Source: Angiostrongylus vasorum
Lineage: Eukaryota; Nematoda; Chromadorea; Rhabditida; Metastrongylidae
Reading direction: 5' to 3'
DNA length: 64,000 bases
Assembly (NCBI GenBank): GCA_018806985.1
Contig: JADANN010000461.1
Span: 1,178,001-1,242,000, forward strand
Shown: piece after piece, positions 12,331-46,234 of the stretch
How positions within the stretch are numbered: position 1 is the stretch's first letter
Layout: every line of letters starts with the position of its first letter
The notes under the pieces: model-generated
The model's database searches: none
What the model saw: only the letters and a program-made list of their open reading frames with translations
What the model was told of the DNA's origin: nothing
Translations under genes and position numbers: made by a program

Positions 12331-12722
12331 CCTTATCAATGATCAAATAAGTAAAAAAATCGATAAACAAGTAAATAAAAAGGCAAATGAATAAGTAAAT
12401 AAATGAGGATAAATGAAAAGTAAGGGAGGTTAATTGACGAAATAAATAACAAAATAGATAAGAAAATGCAGGAATAAATGAGAAACAAAAAATTGATGAA
12501 AAACAAAGGAATAAGGAGCAGAAAAAAGAAAGAAGCAACAAATAAAAAAAGCAAAAAAAAGAGAAAGAATAAGTAAAAAAAATTAAAAAAAAATAAAAGC
12601 AAATAAATAAACGTAAAAAATGGAAACAAAAAAAATAAATAAAAAATAGTCAGGAAAATAAAGGAACGAAAATAAAAGACGAGGCAGAAATTAAAAAAAT
12701 AAAAACGAGTAAAAAATATGAA
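12331..12722. repeat. Strand-asymmetric A/G-rich low-complexity tract
   Basis: About 390 bases whose plus strand is almost entirely A with scattered G and T (AAATAAATAAG-type units) and nearly no C. The phenylalanine/leucine-rich open frames on the minus strand result from this composition and are not genes. Confidence 0.85.
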
Positions 12723-13589
12723 AAAGGAAGGAGTACTCCACATACCTGTGAATGCGCTTTGGTTCTGTGCTTATTACTGCTATATGACGAATCGTAGGTA
12801 CTGGGACATGAAATGGGGGAACCAAACCTGCAAATACCAGCCATATATGTCAACGACTAATTGCATTGTGCCTCGAATGGGTTTGTATACGTCTGTCTAT
12901 CATGTTTAATTGGTATCACACCGAAATCAGGACCGATCGTGGTTTGATAGCACGCCACTTTACAAGAGTAACTTGGAACGGGAAATTTTCATGCTAGCCG
13001 GATATGGGTGTTTTTTAGAAAAATAAAGAAAAGAACAAATAAATTGCCACATCCACCACTAATGTGATATTTTTTAGCGCCCATTCTGCAAGATCTGCTG
13101 CGGCTATGGCCCAAATTTATGTGAAATACATAGACAGTTCTCTATTAAAATTAGATGGGCCTTGACAAAAGATTACACACACTGTGCTTCCATTAATGAT
13201 GGGGATTTCGCAGGCATTCCAACTAACTCTTCAAAAATCAATAACCATTACTAGGAACAACGATTTTTAAATATTACTAGTATACTACACCTCTGATTGC
13301 TTGAGTTGCACGGTACGTCAATCTTCGTATAGGAACGTTCCCGAACATCCTACGACTTTCCCAGAAGATTTCGTTCTTCTTTTTGGTGACACATAAGATA
13401 TCCATTTACTTATTTTTGTGCTGACATAGGAATTGTATGTTGGATTTCTAATAGAAGCGAAAACTGTCAGGTGAAAATTGTACGTTCCAGTGCCATTCCT
13501 CTTAATGTTGATCTTTGACGCATATGTATGTGTTCTTCCCGCTTTTTCTATTTTTTCCATACTTTGTATTCTGTTTTGAAATGAATAAA
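12723..13589. other. Unannotated stretch, nothing recognised
   Basis: No supported gene or repeat. Short open frames on both strands lack domains or a consistent exon context. Confidence 0.5.
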
Positions 13590-15014: not shown

Positions 15015-16560
15015 TCATTAAAATAAACGGGCCTCAGTCCCTTGACCCCAAAAGAGCCCCGGTTAGGGCAGGGGTTGGTAGGACGAGTACGGAGAGGCTG
15101 CTAAAATCTCAAGGCCATTCTGAGCTGAATAAATCGCAAAGGAGTAAGGTGACGAACTGTACGTACAATGCACGCGCAGGTGCATCTGAGCCCTCGATAG
15201 AAGACTTGATCATGCAAGCAAAAAGGATAAGATACGACATCATTGGACTGGTCGAGACGAGGCGAACCCACCCATTCAACGCCGTCTATGACACCAGAGA
15301 AGAATTCCTCGGAACATGCGACAGTAGAGGAGTCGGCCTTGTCGGTGTTCTCGTCAACACGTGTTTGTCCGTGAACATCGATTCATTCGAACAGCTAACA
15401 ACCCGAATCGGATGTTTACGATTGAACAGATGTGAATCAATACCGGCTTAATATCGCGAGAGTACAAAAGATTGTTTTGCCTCACTTTCATCGATTTAAA
15501 GGCTTCTGACTCGGTGTAGGTAGATGCAGTCATGGATGCCCTTGATAGTCAAGGAGTCCCTACTCAGTATATAAAGAATCTTCGTGAGCTGTTCAAAAAT
15601 TTTACAACCAAGATATCACTATTCTACAACGATATAAGCATTAACGTCAAAAAGAGGAGCTAGGCAAGCCGATACCATCTCGCCAAAATTATTTACCGCC
15701 GCCCTCCAGAACGTCATGCGAACATTGGAATGAGATAATATGGGAGTGAAAATCGACGGTCGGCAGTTACACCATCTTCGCTTTGCTGATGACATCGTCC
15801 TTATAACATCAAACATTAGCCAAGCGGAACGTATGCTTGCCGACTTTGATAAAGCCTGTGGAAAGATTGGTCTTCGACTAAATCTCACAAAAACAATGTA
15901 CACGACAGTTATGTCTATCCAGGTCGGGAAATCAATATGATGAACGACTTAGCTCCGGAGCTGAGCAAATGGAAACGAGCGGCTTCGAGAGCTTTCGAAA
16001 GCATCGAGAATGTAGTGAAGAGGACAAAGAACACCCGATTCCGTGCCAACCTTTCAGACTCAGCGGTACCTCCTGCCCCTAATTTATGCTTCAGAAACCT
16101 GGTCGCTGCGTAAGCAGGATGAAAGTTAACTCAGCGTTATCAAATGCGCTGTCGAATGGACGATGCTAGGAGTATCCCGTTTCACACAAGTAAGGTATGG
16201 GATCCAAAGCTCCGAGCTGCGTCAACAATCAAAAATCAAAGATGCCGTTCTGTACGCCAAATAGTCGAGGATAAGGAGGGCCAGACACGTAATGCGTATG
16301 AACGACAACCGATGGAAATGAGCCGTTAGTGACTGGGTGCCTCGGGGTGTCAGACATACTGCAGGAAGACCACCGACCCGATGGTTAGAGTTCTTCAGGA
16401 AAAGCTTAGAAGAAAGGTATGATGCTCAAGGAGTCCCCAGAGCGAGCAAAACCCATTAGCTACCCTTGCACGCGACATGGAAATATGGAAGGCTTACTTG
16501 CGTCTGCTCAAATCATTCGACGATCAACATATCGACAGATGGTAAAGGTGAACCTACGTA
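15015..16560 (+). pseudogene. RTE-type non-LTR retrotransposon, internally deleted
   Basis: The 5' end encodes the start of an AP-type endonuclease at 15149-15451, with the TYNAR and GLVETRR motifs carrying the usual Asn and Glu. The frame then jumps into the reverse transcriptase (LTFIDLKA..., then the RQGDTISPKLFTAAL block, then HHLRFADDIVLIT at about 15766-15805). The 3' part (SLRKQ, RWK, AGRPPTRW) follows to about 16.54 kb. The endonuclease C-terminus and RT N-terminus are missing, and there are several stops and frame breaks, so the copy is dead. It is closest to the copy at 39.99-42.21 kb and shares its 3' end. Confidence 0.85.
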
Positions 16561-20763: not shown

Positions 20764-21045
20764 TCACGCATGTAGCGCAGTGGTTAGAGGTACTCTGGAA
20801 TACATTCGTGGCCGTGGTTCAAGCTCGTATCCCGGGCCCACGAAGCACTCCATTCATCCGGCGTCGGCAAATTGGTACCATACTTGTCTAAGAGGATAGT
20901 GACACCGACTTGATAGGTAGGCCACCGCGAGTCATCGTATAGGTCAGATGTGCATTCAATCACTTAGAACGATGTTTGATGAAGTCGAACGCATAGCACA
21001 TCTCTCAGTGATAGATCCACGCCAAGAGTCTTATCCTTCATCGTG
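20764..21045 (+). repeat. tRNA-derived SINE, plus strand
   Basis: Head GTAGCGCAGTGGTTAGAGG, then GTCGGCAAATTGGTACCATA, GGTAGGCCACCGCGAGTCAT, TGTGCATTCAATCACTTA and a tail ending CTTATCCTTCATC. Near full length. It lies in the presumed intron before the first supported NRPS exon. Confidence 0.85.
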
Positions 21046-21205: not shown

Positions 21206-21423
21206 TAAAGAAGGATAAAAAGGATAAAGCTCTTGGCGTCGATCATTGTCTGAGCCGTGGTGGTTTACCGATTTATCGAGCCAGTGCTGCTATCCTCCCA
21301 GGCAAGTCTGATACCAATTTACCGATCCCGGAAGGATGGAAAGGTTGGTGGGCCATGGGAGCAGGGGATCGATTCCACGTATGTGTTGGAGTGCGCCTCC
21401 CACCACTGCGCCACGCGCTGCCT
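21206..21423 (-). repeat. tRNA-derived SINE, short form lacking ~70 bp of the body
   Basis: The minus-strand head and GATCGATTCC box are intact, as is the CCAGTGCTGCTATCCTCCC block. The segment that normally holds the TGCATTCAATCACC motif is gone, and the tail joins almost directly after the GGTTTACCGAT block. A similar deletion occurs in the copy at 62203-62421. Confidence 0.8.
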
Positions 21424-21502: not shown

Positions 21503-21984
21503 AGTCAAACACTCGTGAAGCACATGGACAACGCCACCTTTTCGGCAACTGCTGTGCAATGCTATCGGGCAACAACTAAACGACTTAACGTTAATTTTTG
21601 CGACAATGACAGAATCAGCCATCCCGTCGTCGCAAAGATTTCTGGAATTCTGAAAACGTCAGAGGACAGCGTCGCCATGTTCGCGATTGACGAAACAACA
21701 CACTTGGTGAAGATCACCGCCAACGAAGACACCATCACATCTGAATTGAACCTTACAATGGCTATTGTTGAACTACTACAAGTATTCATGGATCTAAGCA
21801 TGCCAATAAGCTCGATAGAGCAGATCGACTATCCCGTGATATGTTGCGGGTCGATAAAACTACTTGTTCAGCAGAACGTTAACGATGTCACAATCGAGAT
21901 CTACAGTCATTTCGATGTTCTTTCTGGAAAAACTCACTAATATTCGTTTACAAGGTGAATTATCGAAGAACACTGAAGAAAAAA
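21503..21984 (+). other. NRPS N-terminal region, short DH-like segment
   Basis: Begins right after a TTTTAG acceptor and runs open to about 21927, where one extra T in a TTT run shifts the frame. The HPVVAKISG stretch and the IEIYSHFDVLF...L-N-I-R-L stretch resemble the first and last strands of a polyketide synthase dehydratase hot-dog fold. The usual histidine signature is absent, and at about 140 residues the region is half the normal DH length. It is probably a non-catalytic relic or structural linker ahead of the ACP. The DH assignment is tentative. Confidence 0.35.
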
Positions 21985-24900
21985 CTGAGAAAGCAATCGC
22001 AGTCGAATCTAAGAGTCCAACTTTGAAGTGCATGTTGAAAATAGGTATTGATTGTTCTGAAGAAAATCGCCATGAAACGTTCACCCTCTATGGGATTGGA
22101 CTCGTTGAAAACGGCTGAACTCGAGATGGCACTACAAGCCGACTATCCGAATTATCGTATTCCGACTGGAATCGTCTATCGTTGTCCTACCGTAGCTGAA
22201 ATGGACGCTTATCTTTTGTCACGTGCTGATATATTCGACGTAAATAAAGATACTACCGTTTATTCTCATCATATACCACTTTCTTCACAACAAAAACGCC
22301 TACTTTTTATGAATGAACTTGAACCAGCAGGAAAAGCTCAATTCAATGAGAGTTTGGCTTTTTCGATGAGTTATAAGAATTTCGATGAGAGAAGATTGTT
22401 AATCGCAATGAACTCGGTGATTATGAGGCATACTATTCTCCGGACGAGTTACACTGTTGAGAGTCAACGCATTCATTCTGGTACCGAATCGTTTCTGGCT
22501 ATTCTGAAATGCGACTTAGCTCTAGAAGAGTTCGTATCGTTTCAAGTTGATATAAGTAAATGCTGCCTACAGTTTTGTGTTAGTAAATCAGCCGATAGAA
22601 TAGCGATCTGTCTTGTCGTACACCACATTGCTGTTGACGGCCATTCAATTAGTATCATTACGCAAGAAATAGAGGCATTTTACACAGGAACAGAGCCACA
22701 AACCATAAATCCTAGGCAATATATGGATTACTGCATAGTTACGGCCGATCTTCGTTACAGTAATGAACTAGCGGAATGGAGTAGAAAATTGCAGGGACGA
22801 GAATTTCAACTTCTTCCTACCGATAAACCACGAACTAGAGCTAAATCATGTAATGGTGCTGTTCTTCAAAGACGTCTCACTAACAAACTACAAGAATCGA
22901 TGAAAAGAATTCGAAAACTCGCTAACTGTACTAATTTTTGTGTTTTCGTAGCGATTTACAAGTTTCTCGTCTATAAAACCACTGGTATCGCCGATTTTCC
23001 AATAGGGTTTCCGTCGACTTCACGTAGGAAGGAGTTTTGGTCAACAGTTGGATGTTTTGTGAACACCACACCACTCATAGAAGTAGTAAATCCTTCGATA
23101 ACCGTGAGTGAATATATACTCAACATATCAGCAGCTATTTCTGAGGCCAGAAGGATTGACATTCCACTAGATGTACTCGTAAGTCATCTGAAAATCGATA
23201 GGAGTGTCGATATCTTACCGATTTTTCAAGTTCTACTCGTCATGGACAACATTAAAGCGCCGTCTCCAAATCAGGGACATCGTCCTACTCGATCTACCGA
23301 ATCGCCTGGTTAAGTACGAGCAGACATGGTACTTTCAGGATAACGGTACTTCTCTCAATATTCGAGTAGAGTACAACTGCGATCTGTTCCGAGCGGAAAC
23401 GATTTCGGACCTTCTCGATCGATTTCTGCATATTCTTGATGGTTTCGGCAAGAATTCGTGCGTTCGACTTCTGAAAGATATCACAATTACTACTAAAAGT
23501 GAACAAAAAATCAATTATTGAAAGAAGTGCTTTAAATCGTAGTGACTTTCCTGAGAAAACATTATTCCAGATTTTCCAGAAGAGTCTCTATTCTAACAGC
23601 TCAGTCATTTTCAAGAGGCAACGAATTAACTACAGGGAACTGGACGAAAAAAAGCTCCCACATGGCAGCAGACATTTGTAGAGTATACTGTAATCACTAC
23701 GGTGAATTGCCGTCAAGAGACAGATGTGCTGCCGTATTTATGAAACGAAGTCTAGAACTTCTGGTGACAATCGTCGCTATATGGAAAATCGGTCTCACGG
23801 CGGTTCCTATAAGTTTAGATTGGCCACCGGAACGAACAATAGAAACGTTAAAGATGTATGAAAATCCTATACTAATCGAAAATGATTCTGAAGGACTGAA
23901 AAAACACCGCAGGATATCGGATCATCCCCGTGATCATTCCGAGGAGGGTCCGGTCGTCGATGTCAAAGTGGTGGAATATGGCAGATTTGTCCGACTTGGC
24001 ATACATCACCTGTACCTCTGGTACTACAGGCAGACCGAAAGCAGTGTGTACAGAGTTTTATGGTCACAGTAATCTGGCTGCGGCCTATACGCGAATGTTT
24101 TTAATTCGTGAACAATCGCACATTTATCAGGTGGTGAACTACAGCTTCGATATCTTCTTTGCGGATCTCTCAAAAACTCTAGTGAACGGTGCCTCTATGA
24201 CGCTGGCTGATGGGACTAATACCAAACCTTAAAGAAATGAATGGTGTCACTAACGCCTATATAATGCCTGTCTACCTTTCTTCGTTATCGATTACAGATA
24301 TTAAGTCTTTGGACTTTCTTGAATCAATTCAGTTTGGTGGGGAAACTATTCAAGCCCTCGCCCTCAGACGACTCTTAGAGACCGATATCAGTATTTATCA
24401 AGAATATGGAGTTACAGAACAAACAGTTTACACAAACTGCAATCGGATGAACGTACGCAGTGCAATTTCGAAATTGGAAAGGCCCACTGTAACTTGTACA
24501 CAGTGGTGAGAGATCCGAACGAACAACTGTTGCCCCTTAAATACCAAGGCATTCATTATCTTGGAGGATATGGACTATTTAGAGGATACTACAGTGATCC
24601 TATGTTAACAGCTTCCGTCATACACCAAGGTTTACTTGGCAAAGAATTTCGGACTGGTGATATGGTAAAGTCGGAAAAATGTACGTCTTCAGTTTGTTGG
24701 ACGCGACGATTTGCAAGTGAAAATAAGGGGGGAGAAGGATTGAACTGCTTGAGGCGAGTTTCTTCGACAATCACATCGCCTTCAGGCACTCATACTGCTC
24801 CATTTTAGATTCAATATCATATTGCTCAACACGACGATGTCGAAGCGAACATTGTCGGAGTAGATGACAATGATGGTGTGAAGGAGCTCGTTGCGTACGT

Positions 24901-27900
24901 GATACTTAAGGAGTCGAAAGAGTCGACTGACGCTATTCGGTCATTTCTGAGCAGTCGCCTCCCCAGGCTATTGCATTCCGAAATACTTCATTAGTCTGAA
25001 GGAGTTCCCAGTGAATCAAAATGGCAAAGTCGACATAAGCCAATTTCCAAAACCTCGACGACGTTCATCGCCATCAAATTTGAGACATCCGAAAAATAAA
25101 CTGGAAACGACAGTGATCACTTCATTCCGAAAATATACTGGAAGAGATCACATAACGAACGAGAGCTTTTTTGAGAGGGGTGGAGATTCCATTAAGGTGG
25201 TTTGATCACAACGATATTTCAGCTATCATTGCATAAGACTGTTCTTTCAAAATCCATTCTTTAGGCGATGCTGGTCTTACAGGATCTTGCTGCGCATGGC
25301 CTACACATCGATCTGAAGTCCTTTTTCTCTTTACAAACTGCGGAGAAAATCGCAGCGTTCCTAAACGAAAACTCGATGCCATTAAGGAAATCACGAAACG
25401 ATAAGACTCTTTCATTCAATATTTCGCTTTCAACTCAACAAAGACGACTGTGGTTTCTTGTTAAAATGCATCCGAATCGGGATTCCTATGTGATTCGTCT
25501 TCACATCGACTTCCATCGGTGTGTTGATCAAGAAAAGGCTACTGGAGTCATTCAACCTGGTTGTCATGAATAATTCGCTGTTAAGATCAATAATCTCTCC
25601 TGTCAACGATGAACCAACCTTCCTTACATTGTCAGGTACGGAATGTTTTCATGCGCTTGAACCAAATGAATTGGAAGACGTTCAAATTACTGACTCTTCT
25701 TTGGTGATCGGACAATTGTTTGAAGGAGATTGTTCCAGACTAGATCTCAGAATCCATCATATTATCAGCGATGGCAGAAGTCTGGCGATTATTGGTGAAC
25801 AGCTAGCAGGTGCTTACTAATAGTCTTGAAATCATTTCCGATGACAACTTGCCTGAAAATGATGAACTCGATGACTCATTGGCGTTTTGGAAGGAATATT
25901 TAGAGGATTACGAACCCATTTCGGTTCAAGGAAAAGGTGAGAACGATGGTACTGATGGGAAAAGCGGGCTATCTTATTGAAGAACTCGACTTTATCGATA
26001 GTCTTAAGTTAGACGAGTTTTGCGTTAACTACTGTTGTACCCTTTATCATATAGTAATGTTATCGTTTGTCAACGCACTAAGAATGACATATGACTTGAA
26101 TGATCTGGTAGTTGGAACTACTATCGCCAATCGATCTCCGGTGAATCTGAATCGGGTAGGCCTTTTCGCAAACACTATTCCGTTGAGATTTAGGAAAGAA
26201 TTTCCTGATCTTGAGAGACAGTTACGATACACAATTGATCAGATCCTATCCGCCATGGAACACCAATCTACTTCCCTAGCCAGGATCGTCGAAGGCGTTG
26301 TCAATAATCGAGATTCGACAAGAATCAATCCTCTTTTCGAGCATGTCGTCACTTTTGAAAGTGCATCCCTCTCGAATTTTCCGTCGATGAATGGTTTACG
26401 AACTAAGGTCACCGAGGTGCAATCCGAATTTGTTCAGTTCGACCAGAGCTGGATTTTCCATCCTGGACAAAAAATTATCTTTGTTGATACAATACAACAC
26501 AGGTCGATACTCATTAGACTCTGTGAAAGAACTACTAACTGGTTTTAAAAAGACTTTATGGAACACCTTGAGGAACTCCACGCTAGGATTTATACGACAA
26601 CCGGCAAAAAAACCCTTTATTTTATGACATACCACGAAACAAATGCCTGGGAAAGATTTTTTAGAGAGCAGGCAGGAATGTTGCCCTATGGAGTTTGCCT
26701 TGAATCGAATTACCAAATGACCACCTATTCAGACACCTTGAAAATGTCAGAAAAGTTTGCGTATAGAATGCAAAACGCTATTCTTAGACATCACGGTGTC
26801 ACACTTGCAGTAGACGATGTTATTTGTTTGATTCTTAAGGAATCAATAGAAAACCATATTGCTATTGAAGCAGTGCATCTCCTAGGTTGTGCATATCTAA
26901 GTATGTCACCAGATACACCAATCGAACGATTACGTTACGTAATGACGGACTGCCAACCTAAGCTTATCGTCACCAACTTACATTTCCAAACTCTCCCATC
27001 ACCTACTTTGTTGATAGAGCTGTTTGAAGCTGATAGCGGTCCACGGCTTCTGTTTCGATCGTGTTCAAATTCTCTGGCATACGTAATCTACACGTCTGGT
27101 ACTACAGGGACTCCCAAGGGAGTATGTGTAAGTCATCAGAGTACTCTGAATATGCTAGCACATTGCACAAGACACTACAATTTTCGCCCGATGGCCAAAG
27201 TCTTACAATTGACAAAAAGTTCTTTTGATGCCAGTATAAGTAATACGTTCGGGTGTTTGTTAAATGGTGGAGTTTTAAGTATAACAAGTGGAAAGCAGGA
27301 AATCATCAGCGATTTGTGCGCTCGACAACCGATTACCACATTGCATATGACTCCTATTATTCTGGATATGTTTGACAATGACGACTTTGACCAACTTCAC
27401 GATGTGGAACGTTGGAGTTTTGGAGGTGAAACCATGTCGGAGTCGACGATGAACTCCATGATCGAACGAGGTTATCGCATTGTTCAACTGTATGGACCAA
27501 CAGAGACCACATGTTATGTGACATTGCTAGAAATGAAAAAATCCATAACACCTACTTGTTTAGGTCCCGTCATCTCGGGCTTATTCTATGGGCTATGCTC
27601 TTTTCAAAATCATATGGTACAACGAAAATCACTTGGACAGTTTTGTTGCACTGGTGAGAATTTAGCGCGAGGATATATTGGTTCAGTACAAAAAGGATTT
27701 GTTGACAATCCGTATAGGGACCACTGAAGACAAAATATTGCAAAGGAACACGAAAATCTACTTATCAGGGGACAGAATATGGTGTGATAAAAATCAATAT
27801 CTCCACTTTCTTGGACGTGAAGACGATCAGGTTAAAATCAAAGGTCAACGAATCCAACTTTCTGAAATAGAGAATGTTTCTCGAAAAATGGACGGTGTGC

Positions 27901-30900
27901 AGAATGTTGCCGTTGTTCTTCAGAAGGACAAAGCGAACATGAACCATATGGTTCTGTTCCACACAGGAACGGCGAATAGTCTTCTGACATTTCTTCGGGA
28001 AAGACTTCCAAATTACATGGTACCATCTAAGATTATTCATCTCGTCAAATTCCCGCTGACCACAAACGGAAAAAATTGACAAAAAAAACTTGTCAAGCAG
28101 AAATGATATCAATGATAATTCAACGATAGTTCGAGAACCAAAGGACCACTTTGAGGAGGGTTTGCTAAACAGCTACCAGGAGGTTCTAAAACAACCTGAC
28201 GTCAATGTCCACTCAAATTTTTTTCCAAGCTGGAGGACATTCGCTTCTTGTAGTTCGTCTAGTGGATGCAATTCAAAAATACTTTCGGTGTTTCCGTTCC
28301 AATACTGAAAGTGTTCGAGTTTCCAGTGGTGGCAGATTTAGCTCGATGGATAAAAAAGCTGTCAAAATGCGCAAATCATTCCAGCTATCAGCAAGGAATT
28401 ATGTTCTAAAGAGAACGACAAGCCTACCCCCTTTGCAGCTGACGTTGCTTCGCAGCTTTAGAAACCCGCAGGTGCAAGCGCTTTACGAAATTTCGTTCAA
28501 CATAGTGTTAAAAAAAGTTGATCAACACGAAGAAACTAGGGGGAAATTGTCAATAATCTAACGATGATCCATCCATCATTGAGGACTCGATTTGTCAGGA
28601 TTCACAAAAAATTCTTCAAGGAGATACTATCGGGGACTGAATGCTATCAAAAGCCGGGCAGCAAGGCAACCTCGGGACTTGATCTGCTACGAAAACCTCC
28701 TTTTGTTATCTGCGCTGACGGCAAGAACCTTCAGTTAGTGGTAAATCATATAATCACGGACGGTCACTCAATGCAATTAGTTGTGAGAAATCTCCTAAAG
28801 TTACTGAGTGATGAGCAAATCGCGATGGATGACAGTCACCTATTTCATTCATGGATCCATAATCAATTTCAAAAGCATGGAGCTGATCATCGCCAATACT
28901 GGAGCTCCCGGCTTAAAAACTTTGTCTACAATCAACTTCCAACTAGCCATCCTCGCCTGGTCATTAGAGGCAACCAAGCGGCCTTGTTAAATTTCCAGAT
29001 GTCTCAGCTGCGTAAAAGGCTTGGTTCGTGGGTACACACTTATGGTTGTACACCATTTGCTGCTGTCCTGGCACTTTTGTCACGCACTCTTCAATCGATC
29101 AGTTATGATCCATCAATGCCCGTTGCCATAGGATTCCCTGTTAACCTTCGAACCCATAAGTTACAGAATTCAGTTGCATGCGGCATAAGCACCGTAATGA
29201 TAGCTCACGACACAACAGAGAGTCCGGAGAAGGTAGTTGGAGGTATATCGATGGAGGTCGCACAAGCAATGTCCCACGCTTTTCTGTCTTATGACCAGTT
29301 AATGGAATTGTCTCCATCAAAGAAGCTCTTCAGTGTGATGGTAACATTTGACGACTACTCAGTGGAGGAGAATGACATATTTCGGGTCGATCATGTTGCA
29401 GCTGTGACTACAAAAATTTGAGCTTTCAATCTTTGTAGATCCCAACAGTGACTGCATACAGGTAGAATATAACAAAGAACTTTATAAGGAAAGTTTCATT
29501 GAAAGACTCATGGATATCTTTAACAGTGTCGTTTGCGATTGGTTTGCTGTTCCGAAACAGATCTTTCATTCAGAAGCCAGACAGCTACTTCGTGTAGATG
29601 GCATCATCTACGATACATTGGACATTAAACATCACCTTGAATCCCTAGCACTGTCTGATCTACGCGTCAAAGTATCCAATTCCAAGAGTGTGGAGTTGTT
29701 CTACAGTTGCGACACCAATAAGAACGAAGTTATTCGTGAAAAGCTGAAGCAACTTCCGGAACCACTTCGACCGAAGCGAATATTTTGCCAGCCTAAAAAC
29801 ACCTTCGAGTTTCCATTGAGTACTCAACAATTACAAATGTATTATCTCTCACATGAAAAGCCATCATTCTATGTTCTTCCATTCCTAAAGAAATTTTCAA
29901 AGACCATTCCAGCATCACATATTCAGAAAGCATTGCTGTACGAAATCCAACGGCATGAATCACTGAGAACCATATTTTTCGAAATTCAAGGTGAACCAAG
30001 ACAACTGGTGCTTTCAATGACCGAGGGCTATATTGGTCTTAATGTTGAGAAAACAGCTGATCTTAAGAGGTCACTGACGATATTTACAGGCTCTCCAGTT
30101 CACCTATCAGCAGGGGGTTCCACTTAGAGCCGTTTTATTCGAAACTCCAGATTATTTTGTTGCGATGTTACGATTGCACCACATTATCTCTGATGCTTGG
30201 TCGACTAGTATGCTTGAACAAGAGCTGGGAGAAATTCTTGAAAAACTGAACGCTTTTGAAAATCCTGAATTGCTTAGACAAACGCTTTCCTACAAGAAAT
30301 ACTGCTTGGAAGCGCAACCAACACCTGTGATCAACAGTCTCTACATTGACGCGTTAACGAAAGCAGACTACATTCCCTGAAATGTCGTCGTATCGCGGAG
30401 GTGTCGAAGTGCTGAGTTTTGACTTCTCGGAGTCGGTGGCACATCAGTGTATGAAGCACTGCGGAGTCTCTTTCTTTGTCGTAATGTTAACAATTCTTTC
30501 CAAAAGCATCATGAAGGAGTACGGAATGAAAAGTATCAACATTGGATCGGCGAGTTCTGGTCGCTCGCCAGGGTCAAAGAATGTTTTTTGGCTACTTCCT
30601 TAATAACCTGGTATTTCACATAAGGCAAGAAGTAGAATTGAAATCGCCTGAGACGCTACAACAACACGTTGCCGAAGTAATCTCTAGGAATGTACCCTAC
30701 CCTCAGCTAGTCGACATTGTCCGCCAACGAGGACGACATCTTCGGCCGCTATTTCAGGTCTACTTTAATTGTCGATACGATATGGAAACTCATAAAGACG
30801 ACGACATAGCTGTAAAATCTCTTCTGCAGGTCAAATCGGAATTTCCTTTCGAAGTCGACTTAGATAAAGACTCTACGGACTATTATGTTACGCTTAGGGT

Positions 30901-33900
30901 ACAGGATTGTTTGCCCAAAGGCGCTGGAGAATCTCTTATGAAGGCGATTCAATCGGCACTTCTAACAGGGGCTTCTCACCAGTCCGTGTCCGTAAAAAAG
31001 CCAAATCAGTACCAATTATCCACTAGAGCTAGTATTAGAAATAGCAAAGAAGGTTCTTCTTCTGGAAGCGATCGACTATAATGAGAATTTCTTCTCAGTC
31101 GGTGGAAATTCTTTGCAAGTTATCGCTTTCATTGAACAGATTGAAGAAACCGTAGGAGTAGAAGTCGACATTTCTACCGTCTATCAAATGAAATCGTTTT
31201 TTGAAATTTTCTGACTATTTGCGATCAGTCATTCCTACACAGCCACCCGAAACACCAAATGAAAACGTACAGGTTTCTGGTAGTCCTCATAAAATTGGAG
31301 TCGTTAGTGGATATCCTTTTGTTCCGTTAAGGAAAGAAAGATCGACCTTTAGAAATTCCGGCGTTACCGATGTTCCATGCCGAGGTTTAAATACAATGTT
31401 TCATGAGATGATGGCGTATGGAACAAAGCAGGCAATATTTGAACCCGACGTCTACCAAGTAACCTACGAGGAATTGGCTGATATGATAGCTAGGCAAGCC
31501 GCCACGGTAAGAGACCACTACTGTCAAATCACTGGTGAAACTCTTCGAGTTGATACCATTATACCAGTACTGGGCCAACGATCGGCGTCCACAGTCATCA
31601 CATGCTTATCTGTCATGGCGGCCGGCTCAGCTTATCTTCCTATGGACTCCACTTGGCCTTTAGAACGGCTCTGTACGCTTCTAGACGATTCACATGCTAA
31701 CTGTTACGTTGGTCCGAAAATTGCTGAAATCGATGTACCCAACATTGTGATTAAACCTATGTGCAAAAAAAAACTGTCCACTAATCAAATCCGATTCAGT
31801 TGAAGATCTCGCTTATGTTATTTACACCTCTGGAAGTACTGGTATTCCTAAAGCAGTTTGCATCAATCGTAGATCATTGATCAATACGATGGCTTCGTCC
31901 ACAGTTGGTTTCTGGATACGTACAGAAGACGTAATTTACCAGTTCACGATGTTCGTCTACGACAATAGTGTGCTGGAGATCTTCATGACCCTGGCGAACG
32001 GTGCACGATTGGTCGTTGCTCAGGGTGAATTTCTTCCAAGAACGTTCACAAATCTTCTTACTAATCATGGTATTACTCATTGCCTTCTTTTTCCCGGTGT
32101 TGTTTCGACATTTAGAGATGCTAATTTCAAAAAAATTATCCGCTCTTCGATATTGGATTGTTGGAGCCGAGAAATTGCCACAGAATTTACTTAACCGAGC
32201 CATCGATGAAGGGATAAACGTCATTCAAAACTACGGACCCACGGAGACTACTGCTTATGCCTTAACAAAGCATATGAAGAACAGGGATCGAGGTGAAAAT
32301 ATCGGTCGTCCGATTCAAAACACAACGATTTCAGTGAATGAAGAAGGACAACTATTAATCAAGGGTAGAGGAGTCATGCGCGGATATTTAAAGAAACACT
32401 CGCATTACTTGCTTGGTAAGGATGAGTGGTACTCTACTGGTGACCGTGCCCAACTTCTTCCTAATGGAGACGTGCTTTTCGTCGGTCGGGCAGATAGCCA
32501 AGTGAAAATCCACGGTCATCGCGTTGAACTCTCCGAGATCGAGACCGCCATCACCAGCCCTAGCTGGCGTTGATCAGTGTAAAGTGGTTTGGAGAGCTAG
32601 TGACGAAAAGCTGCTAGCATTCTGTACTAGAGAGCCAGAAGACAATTTAGATGAAGAGTTAGTTCACGAACGATGTCGTAAAAGCCTTCCCAAACATATG
32701 TGCCCTACCCATGTTATTTTTTTAGACAGCTTTCCGTTAACGAAAAACTCAAAAAATCGACTTGGCATTTCTTTCTGAAAACTGGAAAGATTTCTTCGGG
32801 ATGAAGCCACTTTTTTCAACTTGTAGAGCACGTTCTCGGAAGAAAACCTTCCCCGAGTTCAACTCTTTTTGGAAGTTGGTGGCTCAACGAGAGATGCAGC
32901 CGCTTTTAAAAAGACTTTATTTCTCCAAGTCCGCACGATACCTGGATGTTTCGCAACTAATGAAGATTCCTCTCAAAGATATTAAAAAAAGCTGAGCTTA
33001 ACATTGGCGACAATCAAAATGGTGTCAACGGGAATGAACCACTCATTCATCGGCTTCGTAGGATTTGGTCGAAGGTTCTTAAACACGAGAATTTTGGTAA
33101 TAATGATCATTTCTACTTTTGTGGTGGTAATTCAGCGTCGCTTACGAAACTACGCTATGAAGTAAACAAAGAATTTCGCACGAATTTTGAAGTCAGAGAT
33201 TTGTTAGATGTTCTAGTGTTCAACGATATGATAGCATTGCTTCTATCAACGAACGTCCTAACACGAATTGTGACAGTTGTCCATCAGTCTACTGCCAAGC
33301 CTCAGTACCTGCTGATATTCGTCCATACTCTCTATGGAGGTTAGTACTGCGTATGCCAACTTAATCCATCACTTCAGACAATTGGGAAGCGTCGATATTC
33401 TCATGGTGGAACATCCGAACACATTTCGCTTCGAAACCGATGAACCGCGATTTCATGAAAACATACAATTGCTCGCCGACAGTTACTATTCCGAGGTGAT
33501 TACTTGTACTTTCTAATCAATCGATTAGTTACTTCTTTGTATAACGAATGTTGTTATGATGTGAAGAACCACTCAGTGTTATCAAGCAGAAAATCAGTAG
33601 TAAGACAGAAAAAAAGATGTATTTGGTTGGTGAGCTCGAAATTCGGCGTGCTCGATGGCGGATTGGTGGCATTATTAACACCAGTAGTGTCGACCTTTTC
33701 TCGCAATGAATGGAACCGTAGCTGGTTCCGTTCACCCACCCATAGGGATAAGGTTTATGGAATCTGGGGTAAGGAGTGAATACCGCGACAAGTTCCAAAT
33801 CGATAAAATCAGTAGTAATGCGATCACAGAAAAAGTCGGCAAAAAGGTTCTACAAAATATACTGATTTTCGTACTTACCAACTTAATCCTTCACAGTAAG

Positions 33901-36900
33901 TTGATTGCAGCAATTGTGGTACCACAAGCAGTAGTTTCCAGTTATAGTCCACCTAAAAGATAAGAGACAAATGAAAGCTCAATAAGGAAGAGAAGGAGAA
34001 GAAAAGCAAGATAAAAAAATGGTTCCACTTCAACACGAGTTCAGGCACATATACTTTGGACAGGGGGCGCGTGTGGAGCAGTGGTTGGAGGCGCTCTGCA
34101 ACACACATGTGGAATCGATCCCGGCGCGCGTGGCTCACAAAGCTTTCCATCTCTCAGGGTTTGGCAAACTGGTACCAGACTTTTCTGGGAGGATAGCAGC
34201 ACTGGCTCGATACATCGGTAGGCCACCGCGAGTAAGGCCGATTTGCATTTAATCACCTTCAACGATGCTTAATGAGGTCGAATGTGCATGGCGCATCCCC
34301 TCAGGGATTGATCAACATGGAGAACTTTATCTTTTACACTTTGGATAATCGTCTCTGAATAAATGTTTTTGTTTCTTATAATGTTTTAATAATTTCTAAG
34401 TCCGTTTTTTTTGTTTCACCCTATTTCTTTCAATGCTTTTTTTCACTCAACATTTATCTCAGTTTGGCATAATACCGAATTCGAAATCTCGTGGACGATC
34501 AAGTGATGAACGGAGCTCCTCTTTCATTCTTTTTAACGACTACATAAACCAAATGTGGGAAAAAACACCGCTTATGGACGAGGACGAGGGAGGTAAATGA
34601 ACTCGTTGTAGATTCAAAAGTGGCTGGACAGCAGCAACGACGGCGGCGGTGCTGGCGACGACGACGTCGGTTCGGCACGCGTTGCGCTGATCGGAGCTTC
34701 GATTGGCGGTACGATAGCCTTTGAGATGTCAAAGTATTCACGCGGCGAATGTGATGTCATCATTATCGACAGCGGAACTGATTACGAAAAACTACACGAG
34801 CTCCAGTTTGGCGAACATTTCAAGGTATGTTCTTTCATTTTGTCTCTTCCATAGCCCTCAGTTTCTTAGCCACCCACTCTACGGAGCAGACCGTCGGCTA
34901 TTTCTTGTTATTCATCTGCAACAAGCAACCTACAACATACAAACGTACCAAGTATGACTTATATACCTACACACTTGCTTGAAATACTCTTCTTCATGAA
35001 GGTCACGAAGGACCCGGTCGGTTTTCTACTTAGTTCCCGTGTTGCTAATTATGTAGAGTTTTTTTCCGTTAATTCTTCAGCACGATATGTCACATTGTTA
35101 TGGTCATCATGGTTATCGCTACCCGTTGCTATTAACATCTGTGGATTTGAAGCAAGGCGTTTGCGACTTAGTGAACAGATTTCCTCCAAGAAGAGAACAG
35201 TGCCTCGTTTCTAGCTTCTGGCGTAGTTGCGTTCTTAGAACAATATTCTCAACTTCACATTATCGCTAATGCTTTGAAGAATCAGTACTTCCTCCCGCTT
35301 CTAGTTCTTTTTATTTCTTTTTTTAACCTCTGTGCAAGGTGCACACGTAAAGTGGCATATAAATGTAAGGATGCCATAGACAATAAAACGAAACAATCTA
35401 CCCATCAGGATGCGCAAAGAAAAGATCAGTATTGGCCTGGGCAAACCTGTCTTTTGTACTGCAGCTGGCACCGTCGCGAGGACCATTTAACTATCCATGA
35501 AGTAACTCTGCTTAGGATTAGGGAAAGGCCTCCGGGGTTGGCAAATTGGTGCCAGACTTGTCTGGGAGGATAGCAGCACTGGCTCGATACATCGGTAGGC
35601 CACCGTGAGTCATTGTAAAGGCCAGATACGCATTCAATCACTTCCAAACAATGCTTAATGAAGTTGAATGCATGACACATCCTCAGGGATTGATCAACGC
35701 CGAGAGCTTTTTTTACGGAATAACTTTGTTTAGTAGGCGAGGAAAACGTAAGTAGTGGTCACTAAATAAACACGTGATCTTTGGATATAACGGACACTTC
35801 TTCACAGTTTTTTGGAAGAATTTTATTAGATAGCACAAATTGAAATAAACCATGGTTGAAATCATTGACCATTTCCAGATGATCTTATCTTTTCGGATAA
35901 ACGATCTTTAGAGCATCAATGAGGCGCTTTTTGAATTACAAGCTTGACGATGAAACGAGATTCTGGATGGTTGTGAATTCCTGGGATCTACTACAAATGC
36001 TCAAGGACTACAAACTGTCTCCATCACCTAATCTGCGGACACTCACAGTGTTCTCCGTCGATGGTACTGATCTCGGATGGAGCAGGTCTCTCTTTACAAA
36101 TGTTCTTTCTTGGTTATTAATTACTCAATTTACGATCTAAACGCTAAAAATACGGTGGTTTTGGCTGATAATGTGTCATACTTGACGTAAGAATGTCAAT
36201 AATCTGCGATTAAAACAAGTGAAATGTAGGAACACGTAATATCTGATCGACAGATAGTGTCTGTTTATTGGAAAACAACCACATTAGCAGCAACCGCCTG
36301 AACAGAGGACAACTTGGAAACTGTGTAGGTTCGCAACATCGTGTACGGCAGAGCTGAGGAAAACCTCCAAGAGTGGGTTGCGTGTGCAACCTATAACAAT
36401 AAATGCTGGCAGGAGAGAAATAAGAAGCTGTGCGATTTAAAAGCGATCAGCTAGACCTAAAGCATAATAAGCTGGATATCGGACAGCTGAACCTATGAGC
36501 GTCCAGCCAGCGTGACCCATATATGGGCCATACGAAGAAAAATTAATTTGCCCTTGCAACTTTAAACAAACATACGTCAGCTCGCTACAATCTTTACTTA
36601 ATGGGATGGTTGGACGGCCGACTACGGATTGTGCGGACCCCAGCACATTTCTATTCGTTTTGCTTCGCCTTCGTCGCCATGTTCGTCGTTTGATTCGAGC
36701 GAGGTGGCAGACAAGACTCTCACACCGTGATTTTAAAATATCGGGGGCTCCGAACATAGCTGATTAATTCTAGTTAATAACACTTTCACCCAACTTGTAG
36801 GTAGCCGTCCTAGAGGAAGCCTGCATCCTCGTAAAGTTCACTCTATCGTTTTTTTTCGTCTGTTTTCATTGCACGACCGAAACACCTTTGCTTCGCCATC

Positions 36901-38173
36901 GATGTGTGTTGTTCTACATCTCAAAGATGGGACAGACTTCGAAGATCAGAACTTTGCATTCCGGCTAGATGTTGCGTGAGCCCATTGGTATTCTGTCTCT
37001 GTGTTTTTTTAGTAGTTCTAGAAAAGATGTTATCTGGGGAAACGAAGATTTGATGGGAATTTTCCATCAGTACGTATACTCTTTTCGTCATAATGGAGTG
37101 AGATCATTACCTACTTCAATGCGGTAGTAAACAACTTTGGAGATATAGTGTCGCCTTGTCGAACATCTTTTCCCATGGGTGTGGTGAGGGTGGAGGAAAA
37201 AGCTGTGTATTTGTGCTCCAAAACAGTCAGATAGAGTTCTCATGTAAGACGGATCCACTTCTTAGCCGACGAGAGCTGACAGGGATTGCATTCTTTCAAC
37301 GCTGTCGAACGATTTTTTCGTAATCGATAATTGTTAGGAGAGAGGCAGCTGGTATTTCCGACAAAATTTATGACCCTGGACGCGGTTTGGACGTCATCCA
37401 CGTAGCAAAATCCCTTTCTTGGTCAACTGGTTGGACCTCATCAAATCTTGATAAGCGCAGCAGGATAATCTTTCTGAAGGACTTGTATAACCTTGAAACA
37501 TAAGAATTTACTAAGATCAAGGCTTCTGAACCTCATAAATCCTTCTCTTTTCATTTGTTGTAATCAATACGTTAGCGATTAAATGCGACTTCTTGGAGAA
37601 CCATAACAAAATGGTGTCTCCGATGTAGTCTCTGATATCGGTGCTGCGTTCTCACGTAGGTCAGGTCTGAACCATTATCAATAGCTGGTGCATTTCCTTG
37701 ACTGCGTTTCACTCATTAACATAGCTTCCTAGGTTACCTAGTAGAATGTCACCTTGCTTACCATCAAATTCCACGGCGTCCTGGTTAGCTCTCATTTCTC
37801 TACCAACTTTCTTTCATGTCGCACCATTGCTAATATTGTGATTATTAGATAAAATTAGATAGAAAACTAGCCGAGAGAAACGCAGAGCAAGGGACTCCGT
37901 GGCGCAGTATGTAGTGCGCCAGCCCCCGGAAGGGGAAATCCTGGTTCGATCTGGCCTGGGTCAGAACTTTGCGAATATCTCAGCATCGTTTTTGTTGATT
38001 GTGGTAATTGTTAATATGATTATCTGGTTATTAGATTTAAAAAATGGTAACTCAATTTTATAGCGTGCACCCCACCTCCACAAAGAAAAATCGCTGGAAC
38101 TCACTTCAACATGCTTTCGCCGGAGAACAGTGATGTAATGGCCGCTGAAATCGTTCGCGCTTTGTCTCTGTAA
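21503..38173 (+). CDS. nrps-1: Multimodular nonribosomal peptide synthetase, NRPS-1-like, frame-disrupted
   Basis: Encodes an assembly line that activates amino acids as adenylates, carries them on phosphopantetheine and condenses them. Read across frame changes, the order is DH-like, ACP, C1, A1, T2, C2, A2, T3, C3, A-remnant, C4, T4, A3, T5, T6, TE. Carrier GLDSL/GGDS/GGHS/GGNS sites, condensation HHxxxDG-type sites, three adenylation P-loops and the thioesterase GASIGG are all visible. In C. elegans, NRPS-1 receives a PKS-1 intermediate on an N-terminal ACP and finishes nemamides; the same role is inferred here. About 35 single-base frame breaks, many in mononucleotide runs, interrupt the frame, yet motifs survive. 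I favour assembly indels over pseudogenisation. The first supported exon follows TTTTAG at 21502; the true start may be upstream. The stop is at 38171-38173. Gene symbol by inferred orthology. Confidence 0.9.
21985..22235 (+). other. Carrier 1, ACP-type (NRPS N-terminal)
   Basis: Motif SMGLDSLKTAELE; the phosphopantetheine serine codon is 22102-22104. GLDSL rather than GGDSL is typical of polyketide ACPs and suits loading of a polyketide intermediate, as reported for the N-terminal ACP of C. elegans NRPS-1. One surplus base in the CCC run near 22084 separates the preceding HETF helix from SMGLDSL. Confidence 0.8.
22260..23490 (+). other. Condensation domain C1
   Basis: Open without a break from about 22087 to 23270. 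Starts with PLSSQQKRLLF (C1 motif), then LRTSY, and the active site VVHHIAVDGHS (His pair 22621-22626, Asp 22636-22638). PIGFPSTSR and TVGCFVNTTPL follow. After one frame step near 23270 the end reads VEYNCDLFRAETISDLL. All catalytic residues are present. It should join the ACP-bound upstream chain to the amino acid activated by A1. Confidence 0.9.
23530..25050 (+). other. Adenylation domain A1
   Basis: Motifs in order: FMKRSLELLVTIVAIWK (A1/A2 region), YITCTSGTTGRPKAV (A3, about 24000-24040), VNYSFDIFFADL (A4, with the conserved Asp), FGGETI, QEYGVTEQT (A5), GYGLFRGYYSD (A6), FRTGDMV (A7), GRDDLQVKIRGERIELLEA (A8, 24699-24760, rebuilt over two frames), and the A10 lysine in NQNGKVD (about 25020-25030). 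Roughly eight frame steps occur, the densest at 24.67-24.75 kb. A short intron may end at the TTTTAG at about 24809. Tentative pocket residues are D, I, A, I, F, E, V, Y, K; the substrate is not assigned. Confidence 0.9.
25060..25370 (+). other. Carrier T2, split by a short intron
   Basis: FFERGGDSIK with the serine codon at 25188-25190. The frame then runs into a stop, but an intron from GT at 25197 to AG at 25264 restores the domain as GGDSIK-AMLVLQDLAAHG... followed by FFSLQTAEKIAAFL. This is the clearest small intron in the central block. It shows that the locus is not a retrocopied mRNA. Confidence 0.85.
25197..25264 (+). other. 68-bp intron inside carrier T2
   Basis: Starts GTGGTT after codon AAG and ends TTCTTTAG. 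Its removal leaves the reading phase intact and rejoins the two halves of the carrier fold. The length and the T-rich acceptor are typical of nematodes. Confidence 0.75.
25395..26560 (+). other. Condensation domain C2
   Basis: ISLSTQQRRLWFL opens the domain. The active site RIHHIISDGRS lies at 25752-25784 (His codons 25755-25760, Asp 25770-25772). Then come TIANRSPVNL, VGLFANTIPLRF, and the end SLLIQYNTGRYSLDSVKELL. Frame steps lie near 25530, 25820, 25945 and 26480 (an A6 run). The segment between 25820 and 25937 (DDSLAFWKEYLEDYEPIS) is read in a third frame. The catalytic site is complete. Confidence 0.9.
26590..28085 (+). other. Adenylation domain A2
   Basis: Contains the longest uninterrupted adenylation frame (26558-27727). 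Motifs: HLLGCAYLSMSPDTP (A2), SLAYVIYTSGTTGTPKGV (A3, 27075-27124), KSSFDASISNTFG (A4), FGGETM, QLYGPTETT (A5), GENLARGYIG (A6), YLSGDRI (A7), GREDDQVKIKGQRIQLSEIE (A8) and TTNGK (A10 lysine). One frame step lies at about 27700-27720 and one in an A5 run at about 28075. Tentative pocket residues: D, A, S, W, F, L, C, Y, K; the substrate is not assigned. Confidence 0.93.
28115..28350 (+). other. Carrier T3
   Basis: NVHSNFFQAGGHSLLVVRL after removal of one T from the T7 run at about 28218-28224. The serine codon is 28241-28243. GGHS is a common variant of the carrier signature. Confidence 0.88.
28415..29535 (+). other. Condensation domain C3, NHxxxDG active site
   Basis: Active site VVNHIITDGHS: the first His is Asn (28744-28746), while the second, catalytic His (28747-28749) and the Asp are kept. 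IGFPVNLR, NSVACGISTVMI and, after a step in an A5 run near 29412, KFELSIFVDP and VEYNKELYKESFIERL complete the fold. Asn at the first position occurs in some active condensation domains, so activity is plausible. Confidence 0.85.
29560..29795 (+). other. Remnant of an adenylation C-terminal subdomain
   Basis: Between C3 and C4 there is room for only about 80 residues. The stretch VDGIIYDTLDIKHHLESLAL...VELFYSCDT...REKLKQLPEPLRPKRI has the strand-helix pattern of the adenylation C-terminal subdomain (around A8-A9). It lacks the P-loop, A4, A5, A7 and a clear A10 lysine. No carrier follows. It looks like the relic of a deleted A-T pair. Confidence 0.5.
29800..31000 (+). other. Condensation domain C4, HHxxxDA variant
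   Basis: FEFPLSTQQLQMYYLSHE begins the domain. The active site LRLHHIISDAWS has both His (30177-30182) and the Asp, with Ala instead of Gly after it. GYFLNNLVFHI (about 30590) and FEVDLDKD with YVTLRVQ follow. Frame steps lie near 30090, 30115, 30375 and 30580 (a T6 run). It directly follows the adenylation remnant, giving two condensation domains with no working A-T pair between them. Confidence 0.85.
31020..31225 (+). other. Carrier T4, placed before A3
   Basis: NFFSVGGNSLQVIAFIEQIE with the serine codon at 31110-31112, then VDISTVYQMKSFFEIF. A frame step near 31040 separates it from the C4 end, and another near 31200 from the next segment. Its place, after C4 and before A3, departs from the standard C-A-T order. 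Confidence 0.88.
31310..32775 (+). other. Adenylation domain A3
   Basis: Motifs: AAGSAYLPMDSTWPLERL (A2), DLAYVIYTSGSTGIPKAV (A3, 31807-31860), FVYDNSVLEIF (A4), IVGAEKLPQ, NYGPTETTAY (A5), GQLLIKGRGVMRGYL (A6), WYSTGDRAQL (A7), VGRADSQVKIHGHRVELSEI (A8) and LTKNSK (A10 lysine). Frame steps: an A9 run near 31768, about 32180, about 32555 and an A6 run near 32755. Tentative pocket residues: D, N, L, W, V, N, A, Y, K; the substrate is not assigned. Confidence 0.92.
32815..32995 (+). other. Carrier T5, degenerate (GGST)
   Basis: LVEHVLGRKPSPSSTLF, then LEVGGSTRDAAA (32866-32904) and LLKRLYFSKSARYLDVSQLM give the full helical pattern of a carrier. At the attachment site the order is G-G-S-T. Aligned to G-G-x-S, Thr replaces the phosphopantetheine serine, unless a codon is missing in this indel-rich stretch. 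Probably non-functional or assembly-damaged. Confidence 0.6.
33035..33275 (+). other. Carrier T6
   Basis: IHRLRRIWSKVLKHENF, then FYFCGGNSASLTKL with the serine codon at 33132-33134, and VRDLLDVLVFNDMIALL. An intact carrier immediately before the thioesterase, so it should hold the finished chain. Confidence 0.85.
33496..34611 (+). other. Thioesterase intron 1 (1,116 bp) with a SINE
   Basis: GTGATT donor after GAG and TTGTAG acceptor before ATT; both exons are in phase 0. It contains a plus-strand SINE at 34064-34335. Open frames inside are not coding. Confidence 0.65.
34064..34335 (+). repeat. tRNA-derived SINE in NRPS intron
   Basis: Full-length copy: GCGCGTGTGGAGCAGTGG head, GAATCGATCCC box, CACTGGCTCGATACATCGG, ATTGATCAACATGG and the tail CTTTATCTTTT. 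Confidence 0.9.
35527..35720 (+). repeat. 5'-truncated SINE in NRPS intron
   Basis: Starts at CCTCCGGGGTTGGCAAATTG, so the tRNA-like head is missing. The body and tail (GATTGATCAACGCCGAGAGC) are well preserved. It lies in the presumed third thioesterase intron (about 35285-35878). Confidence 0.88.
36990..37760 (-). pseudogene. RTE-type reverse transcriptase relic, antisense
   Basis: Minus-strand translation gives GKDVRQGDTISPKLFTTAL around 37125-37182, the RT block shared with the two plus-strand RTE copies. VDDVQTASRVINFVGNTSCL lies upstream of it (about 37340-37410). Stops in all frames show that it is dead. Confidence 0.65.
37862..37992 (+). repeat. Rep-C copy 5 with the most tRNA-like core
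   Basis: Left end CTAGCCGAGAGA, right end GCGAATATCTCAGCATCG. The core contains TGGCGCAGTATGTAGTGCG (A box) and GGTTCGATC (B box) at a tRNA-like distance. The acceptor-stem halves do not pair well, so it is not called as a tRNA gene. Confidence 0.65.
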
Positions 38174-39984: not shown

Positions 39985-42212
39985 GTAACTCATAATTCCA
40001 GAAGTCCCACCCTCAACGCTGGACGTGGGAGTCTCACAATGTAGGGCACCTTGGCGAAATACACCACATCATAGTAAATCGAAGGTTTCGCCTAACCGAT
40101 GTCGCTGTTCTACCAAAATTCTACACGGGATCAGCACACCGTCTCCTTTGTGCTAGATTTTATTTCGCGCGGAGAGGAAAGAAAGCCGCTACATTCAAAA
40201 GTCGAAGTCCCAACGCCATCATAAACTGGGACTTATTCAGTTCACTAGTCGGCTACTGGGAAGATGCCCTTCTCAAAAACATCGACGAAGAATGCGATCG
40301 GCTCATTCAACATTTTCACGATAGCGCTGTGAAAGTTGAGAGTTTGAAAGTCACCAAAAGACGTCTGTCTCTATAGACACCCTAGCCAACACGCCAGCGC
40401 GGAATCGCACGAGCTGCGTGCAACCGTCAGCTCAGGTCCGAATTTGCAAAACAGGTAAGCGACAAAAGAAGATCTCAAAAAGAGAAGAGCGGCAGTTATG
40501 GTCGAAGCTGCAGAGGCCTGGGAAAAAGCATTCGAAAAAGCTCACCGAAGCTTCGCCAATTAGAAGATCAAGATGATTGCACTCCGACGGCAGAACAGTT
40601 ACAGCGTCCAGAAAGGCAGTGGAGAAGATCGTTCACATATACTACTCAGGTCTCTTCGATAGCCACGTCCACCTTCCGTCATATGAAATAAAGGAGGATG
40701 GATATGTTGTACCATCGGTTCTCGCTTCCGAAATCCGACAAGCCATTTCGTCGGTGAAAAATCGAACAGCAACAAATTCGGACAGGATAAGACCAGAACA
40801 CCTGAAGAACCTTCCGCCAGTCCTCGTAAACACACTGGCTCGGTTCTTCACACATTACCTGTCTGAATGCAAGGTCACTACTCAGTGGAAGACCAGCAAC
40901 ACGGTGTTATTGTTCAAGAAGATGACCTACAAGATATCGGCAACTATGGCTCAATCTGCTTCCTGTCTGTCGTCTACAAACTTTTCACTCGACTCATCCT
41001 AAACAGTATTAACAAAACACTGGACGAAGGACGGCCATGTGATCAACCACGGTTTCGAAAAGGATTTTGTACGATGGACCACATTCACACGATAACAACG
41101 CACATTGAAGTACAGCGTGAGGACAAAAGACCGCTCTGTCTCACTTTCATCGATTTACGGAAGGCCTTTGATTCAAATGAGATAGAGGCAGTCATGGAAG
41201 CCCTTCACACATCACCATTCTACGCGTTATTAACATTGACGTCAAAACAGGAGTTAGGCAAAGCGATACCATCTCGCCAAAATTATTTACGCGCCACCCT
41301 CCAGAACGTCATGCGAACACTGGAATGGGATAATATGGGAGTGAAAATCGATGGCCGGTAGTTACATCATCTTCGCTTTGCTGATGACATCGTCCTTGTA
41401 ATACCAAATACTAGCCAAGCTGGACGTATGCTTGCCGACTTTGATGAAGCCTGTGGAAAGATTGGTCTTCGACTAAATCTGACAAAAACGATGTTCATGA
41501 GGAACGGATTGGCTTCATATGCTCCATTCACGCTCAACGGAACGAATATCTCCGAATGCTCCAGCTACGTCTATATAGGGCGGAAAATCAACATGTTGAA
41601 CGACTAAAGCAGAGTTGAGCAGAAAGAAACGAGTGGCTTGGGGAGCATTTAAGAGTATTGAGGATGTAGTGAAGAGAACAAAAAACACTCGACTCCGTGC
41701 CCACCATTTCGACTCCACGATGCTTCCTGCCATTACGTTTGCATTAGGAACCTGGTCTCTACGTAAGCAGGAAGAAAGATCACTCAGCATTATTGAACGC
41801 GCAGTCGAAAGGACGACACTACGAGTATTCCGTGTCACACAAGTGAGTGAAGTGATCGGAAGCTCCGATCTACACAAACGACCAAAAAATCAAAGTTGTT
41901 GCTCTATACGCCAAGCAGTAGAAGATAAGATGGGCCTTACACGTAATACGGATAAATGACAACCGATGGACAAGAGTGGTTAGTGACTGGATTCCTTGGG
42001 ATTTTAAACGTACTGCAAGAAGACCACCGGCCCGATGGTCAGAGTTCTACGCGAGAAGACCGGAAGAAAGCCATGAAGCTCAACAGGTCCCTAGAGCGAG
42101 CAGAACCCACTGAGCCACTTTTGAACGTGACAGGGAAAAATGGAAGACTTACTGGCTCGCTCAAGTCACACGACGATCAATGGGACGACAGTGATACAGA
42201 TGACAAAGGTTA
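39985..42212 (+). pseudogene. RTE-type non-LTR retrotransposon, 5'-truncated
   Basis: Retains the endonuclease C-terminus (FYTGSAHRLLCARFYFARRG at about 40117-40176) and RT blocks: EIRQAISSVKNRTATNSDRI, LTFIDLRKAFDSN, the QGDTISPK-like block (frame-shifted, about 41250-41285) and HHLRFADDIVLV (about 41365-41405). The 3' domain has KRVAWGAFKSIEDVVKRTKN and the AR-RPPARWSEFY block, ending near 42.2 kb like the copy at 15-16.5 kb. Several frame breaks and a TAG before HHLRFADD make it non-functional. Confidence 0.88.
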
Positions 42213-46162: not shown

Positions 46163-46234
46163 GGTCCCGTGGTGTAGCGGTTAACACCTTGGACTTTGAA
46201 TCCAGTAACGCGAGTTCAAATTCCGCACGGACTT
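46163..46234 (+). tRNA. tRNA-Gln (anticodon TTG), possibly degraded
   Basis: 72 nt. The D arm GTGT-AGCGGTTA-ACAC pairs, the anticodon arm TTGGA-CTTTGAA-TCCAG pairs and gives TTG, and the T loop TTCAAAT is canonical. The acceptor stem pairs at about five of seven positions and the T stem has one mismatch. It is the best preserved of seven related sequences; it may be a live gene of low score or a recent relic. Confidence 0.5.

Follow-up and report, generated by a model that had tools for sequence, protein, structure and literature searches.

An NRPS-1-like megasynthetase gene of Angiostrongylus vasorum with about one more module than NRPS-1 of C. elegans

The known system nearest to the gene described here is NRPS-1 of Caenorhabditis elegans, the nemamide synthetase, a nonribosomal peptide synthetase (NRPS), which couples amino acids to a fatty chain with no ribosome involved. 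As described in the available part of Feng et al. 2021 (PMC8363725), that protein has an unannotated N-terminus, then an acyl carrier protein (ACP) domain, then modules of condensation (C), adenylation (A) and peptidyl carrier protein (PCP) domains, and a terminal thioesterase (TE). The residues named there are ACP7 S307, A2 G964, C3 H1486, C4 S1934, A3 G2337 and TE2 S2803. A1 and C1 belong to PKS-1, and NRPS-1 comprises A2-A3 and C2-C4. Its A domains are said there to be without homology to bacterial and fungal ones. The results suggest that C3 and A3 insert both D-Asn residues, which would leave three C domains to add four residues in C. elegans. Here we describe a gene with much of this layout. 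It lies in a window of 64,000 nt from Angiostrongylus vasorum (contig JADANN010000461.1 of GCA_018806985.1, positions 1,178,001 to 1,242,000, forward strand).

NRPS-1 homologs are said, in sources available in part, to occur in most nematodes, parasites included, and Brugia malayi pks-1 appears there among the markers of canal-associated cells. The accessible part of a 2023 survey (PMC10531068) reports NRPS genes in many nematodes, all in one clade except some Plectus A domains. Such a gene in a parasite is therefore not new. Set beside these homologs as a group, rather than by domain counts per species, the present gene may be ordinary. No description of its architecture was found in the literature covered, which was partial and lacked the 2016 paper and the supplements.

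The gene, like all its features given below, is on the forward strand. The preliminary description placed it at 21503..38173, and both the gene and these bounds hold up: the open stretch has its first ATG at 21524, its stop codon occupies 38171-38173, and an extra exon upstream is possible. Its domain order is ACP-C-A-T-C-A-T-C-[likely A remnant]-C-T-A-(T?)-T-TE, where T is a carrier. C, A and carrier domains recur within one gene, as expected of an NRPS, and an ACP-type carrier follows an unannotated N-terminus and precedes the first C domain, as in nematode NRPS-1. We argue that the gene lies in an animal chromosome, that it most likely codes for a megasynthetase of the nematode NRPS-1 type, and that it is probably intact in the worm and read with about 28 small assembly errors. 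We consider this account likely as a whole. Reading the whole chain as a single open frame requires 34 frame switches as assembled in 11.8 kb. That these suffice to cross 11,817 bases without a stop makes the gene more than chance, because first-order Markov controls (n=50) require 136 on average and 114 at the lowest. The opposite strand requires 139, and four other stretches of the window 101-136.

The four condensation and three adenylation domains of the preliminary description are all supported by PF00668 and PF00501. C1 and A2 can each be read in one open frame, while C2, C3, C4, A1 and A3 were scored by Pfam on frame pieces joined with X. C1 (22264..23518, motif HHIAVDG) matches PF00668 at 8.4e-41 and A1 (23540..25080) matches PF00501 at 1.9e-28, with pieces of a locally built A profile at 23716-24613. 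They are followed by C2 (25412..26545, HHIISDG, 1.1e-25) and A2 (26640..28090, 1.9e-48), which keeps its C-terminal subdomain (PF13193, 6.2e-8). C3 (28420..29540, 7.9e-23) reads NHIITDG, with the first His replaced and the second kept. Between C3 and C4 is a likely remnant of an A C-terminal subdomain (29573..29821), with neither A core nor carrier. C4 (29810..30960, 1.6e-27) reads HHIISDA, the motif Gly being replaced, and A3 (31400..32790) matches PF00501 at 3.3e-50. The three A core motifs are kept in the read path, as is the second His in each of the four C domains. A search of all six frames of the window with locally built A, C and T profiles gave A pieces in 3 places, C pieces in 4 and carriers in several; no further A, C or T domain was convincing with these profiles on either strand of the whole window. 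Pairwise identity is 16-21% among the four C domains and 22-30% among the three A domains, and therefore no module is a recent copy.

Six carriers had been claimed, and five are supported. The GLDSL carrier at the N-terminus (22000..22245, ahead of C1) is ACP-like as first described: it matches PF00550 at 2e-5 on X-joined pieces, above the cut-off, and 53 of its 54 PDB matches are carriers by name (best E 0.0021), the exception being 2cka. The 53 include SDAP1 and the complex I subunit AB1, both of which are carriers. PCP1 (25100..25400, GGDSI) reaches 31.2 bits with the local carrier profile. It is split by a 68-base GT-AG intron placed by eye at 25197..25264 (25200-25264 in a codon model), and its two pieces taken apart gave no Pfam match. 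PCP2 (28139..28360, GGHSL) scores 22.1 bits with the local profile and 0.0037 with PF00550, below the cut-off. PCP3 (31020..31199, GGNSL) matches PF00550 at 4.4e-11, and the terminal carrier, PCP5 (33003..33260, GGNSA), at 2.3e-6 to 2.5e-6. The Ser of all five is present in the read path. The sixth, a carrier-like stretch at 32827..32983, is unsupported: it has GGST in place of GGxS and thus no carrier Ser, and its 1.1 bits with the local profile are close to chance, 28 of 1000 shuffles doing as well. It is probably dead or no carrier at all. The five others seem capable of working, one serving the start and four the residues.

The gene ends in a thioesterase-like domain (33303..38173) of five exons by eye, with GASIGG and a terminal GTHF, running to the stop. 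A sequence search returned no thioesterase among its 5 PDB matches up to E 10. Its four introns, all GT-AG by eye, are at 33496..34611, 34825..35080, 35285..35878 and 36086..38063; the first and third hold copies of a repeat family, D1 (34074-34286 and 35451-35663). The first 11.8 kb has a single placed intron, the one in PCP1. At the other end, the 138 codons from the first ATG (21524..21937) belong to no known family (no Pfam match at E 0.1). A single-sequence structure model of this stretch has a pLDDT of 35.7, and therefore we claim no fold for it. The real start codon may be farther upstream, since the ACP Ser falls at residue 193 in this gene, compared with 307 in C. elegans.

The frame breaks can be read in more than one way. 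One can imagine that they are real mutations in the animal, in a young pseudogene from which no full enzyme is made. A density of about 2.4 breaks per kb fits this, and so does the neighboring broken retrotransposon (39996-42090, with an RVT_1 match), which we take to be of RTE type and which over 2.1 kb has 2 stops and, in each direction, 2 breaks, too few to decide between error and decay. Denver's 2004 work on C. elegans mutation-accumulation lines reportedly found small indels rich in insertions. However, in the codon model for 21524-33340, 26 breaks are one extra base (+1), only 2 go the opposite way and only 2 are in-frame stops; without an intron state the numbers are 25, 3 and 3. Both stops fall in stretches where, by eye, another frame reads protein-like. 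The catalytic motifs are kept, and the breaks favor homopolymers. The 28 breaks were listed, 2 without a valid interval were dropped, and among the remaining 26 intervals a run of at least 6 equal bases occurs in 10 against 3.3 expected, a number reached by none of 2000 random sets. Runs of at least 5 occur in 15 of the 26 (6.7 expected) and runs of at least 7 in 5 (1.3 expected, as high in 0.6% of random sets). Because 26 of the 28 breaks are +1 and homopolymers are favored, most are probably insertion errors of the assembly rather than decay. A young pseudogene is unlikely, but of the other explanations it is the one to be taken most seriously. The near-uniform +1 direction across 21524-33340 may itself be a signature of the sequencing method, usable for judging further genes in the assembly. 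The locus also suggests that automated annotation may break up or overlook genes of this kind where an assembly contains insertion errors.

The gene could also be intact and yet an animal NRPS other than the NRPS-1 ortholog, with an unrelated product. Its domain count is unlike that of C. elegans NRPS-1, and other animals have varied NRPSs (accessible part of PMC10531068). Against this, an ACP-type carrier before C1 together with a TE-like end is the NRPS-1 layout as far as the available text of PMC8363725 gives it, and nematode NRPSs form one clade, some Plectus A domains apart, in what is available of PMC10531068. The spacing can be compared as well. The ACP Ser and the A1 core Gly are 638 codons apart here and 657 in C. 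elegans (S307-G964), where G964 as the core glycine is a guess. A1 to the C2 His is 556 and A2 to the C3 His 548, versus 522. The C3 His is 477 from the C4 His and 484 from the Ser that follows the motif, the latter being close to 448 in C. elegans. From the ACP Ser to the TE Ser, counted from exons, there are about 3,790 codons here versus 2,496 residues. The surplus of about 1,300 codons amounts to about one C-A-T module (994-1,020 here) and carrier-sized stretches. We think a non-orthologous synthetase rather improbable. The preliminary description's NRPS-1 likeness stands as far as it concerns a multimodular NRPS of animal type in which an ACP-like carrier precedes C1 and the end is TE-like; the domain count departs from it. 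We file the gene as NRPS-1-like, not NRPS-1, because it has four C and three A domains against three and two, a count that may or may not define the family across nematodes. The likeness is drawn solely to the published description of the C. elegans protein. The gene thus belongs, as NRPS-1-like, to a kind already known, and exceeds its C. elegans counterpart by about one C-A-T module.

It must be noted that several points weigh against an intact NRPS-1-type synthetase read through assembly errors. C. elegans NRPS-1 has three C and two A domains, and this gene has more of both and more carriers. The distance from the C4 His to the A3 core is 549 here versus about 410 in C. elegans if S1934 follows HHxxxDG. 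The single thioesterase that had been claimed has its two motifs but reaches only 0.0018 with PF00975, 19.0 bits versus a cut-off of 26.4. The codon model that gives the frame path had this very gene as its training set. By eye both of its stops are double shifts, and counted so the +1 bias is 28 of 32. The break intervals can span as many as 203 bases, and 15 of the 25 runs of at least 6 in the region fall outside them, the intervals making up 15% of the region.

Programmed +1 frameshifting at many sites would account for the bias of 26 in 28. However, the break intervals have no common site motif by eye, and at the end of C1 the shift comes about 40 bases ahead of the stop (judged from the protein by eye). 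The homopolymer enrichment indicates reading errors, and the RTE copy breaks equally in both directions. We consider programmed shifting very improbable.

Bacterial modular NRPSs, for example linear gramicidin synthase LgrA (6mfy) and Txo2 (6p1j), also have C and A domains recognizable by sequence. They differ in having no introns, and the best aligned plasmid-borne ones are 22-31% identical to the domains here. A2 and C1 were searched against a plasmid collection of 72,556 records. All 1318 plasmid records matched by A2 are below 60% identity, with 31.0% the best among the matches listed; all 441 matched by C1 are likewise below 60%, with 30.8% the best among those listed. Thus no bacterial match of at least 60% to either query was found in the 72,556 plasmid records. 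Local alignments to bacterial domains, 23 of A and 28 of C type, gave best identities of 22-31%, and in trees, which are weak, the domains do not nest in one bacterial lineage. The D1 repeat has copies in two introns of the gene and in many places in both flanks, and the GT-AG introns seen by eye also speak for an animal genome. The strongylid label of the preliminary description, which the RTE elements of hookworms would favor, may be right. We argue that this is animal DNA because the best-covering bacterial matches are only 22-31% identical and two introns hold the window's own repeat family, and the animal origin first proposed is upheld on this ground. NRPSs are mostly bacterial, but with identities this low, host repeats in the introns and no nesting in one lineage, contamination or a recent transfer from bacteria has next to no chance of being right.

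If the gene is an intact NRPS-1-type synthetase it would probably work as follows. An activated acyl or polyketide chain would be placed on the N-terminal ACP. C1 would join this chain to a residue loaded by A1 on PCP1, and C2 would add a residue loaded by A2 on PCP2. C3 and C4 would share A3 and add two residues, with PCP3 and the terminal PCP as their carriers. The TE would then release the product, perhaps as a ring. This makes four residues in total, the nemamide number, and a separate C domain for each. The domains and their order are observed; how they are loaded, in what order they are used, whether a ring forms and what the product is are argued here by analogy with C. elegans. One can go further, since C. 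elegans would manage four residues with three C domains and this gene has four such domains. The gene may be an NRPS-1 with one C per residue, four for four, with C. elegans reusing C3 and A3. The A remnant would then be the scar of a lost A domain, and the lineage would show a stepwise conversion from linear to iterative use. We put this forward tentatively, as possible but doubtful. At the very least, a homolog with an extra module invites guesses on which domain loads which residue and on whether C. elegans reuses domains.

The window holds other repeats. D1, labeled SINE-like by eye, has numerous diverged copies, which resemble the reference copies at about 60-85%. They are found at 20835, 34074, 35451, 38585, 43606, 46319, 48906 and 57501, and by eye on the other strand at 21251, 42988, 44589, 51168, 53496, 56645 and 62250. 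At 15697-15905 there is a 91% copy of a 209-base piece (41292-41500) of the broken retrotransposon. Other dispersed repeats, 78-92% alike and outside the NRPS gene, are at 3645, 14034 and 14696 and in the pairs 9438/13743, 10712/59160 and 10782/59229. Imperfect A-rich tandem repeats occupy 12369-12725. ARAGORN and an Rfam tRNA match place a tRNA-Gln (TTG) at 46163-46234, about 85 bases before a repeat copy.

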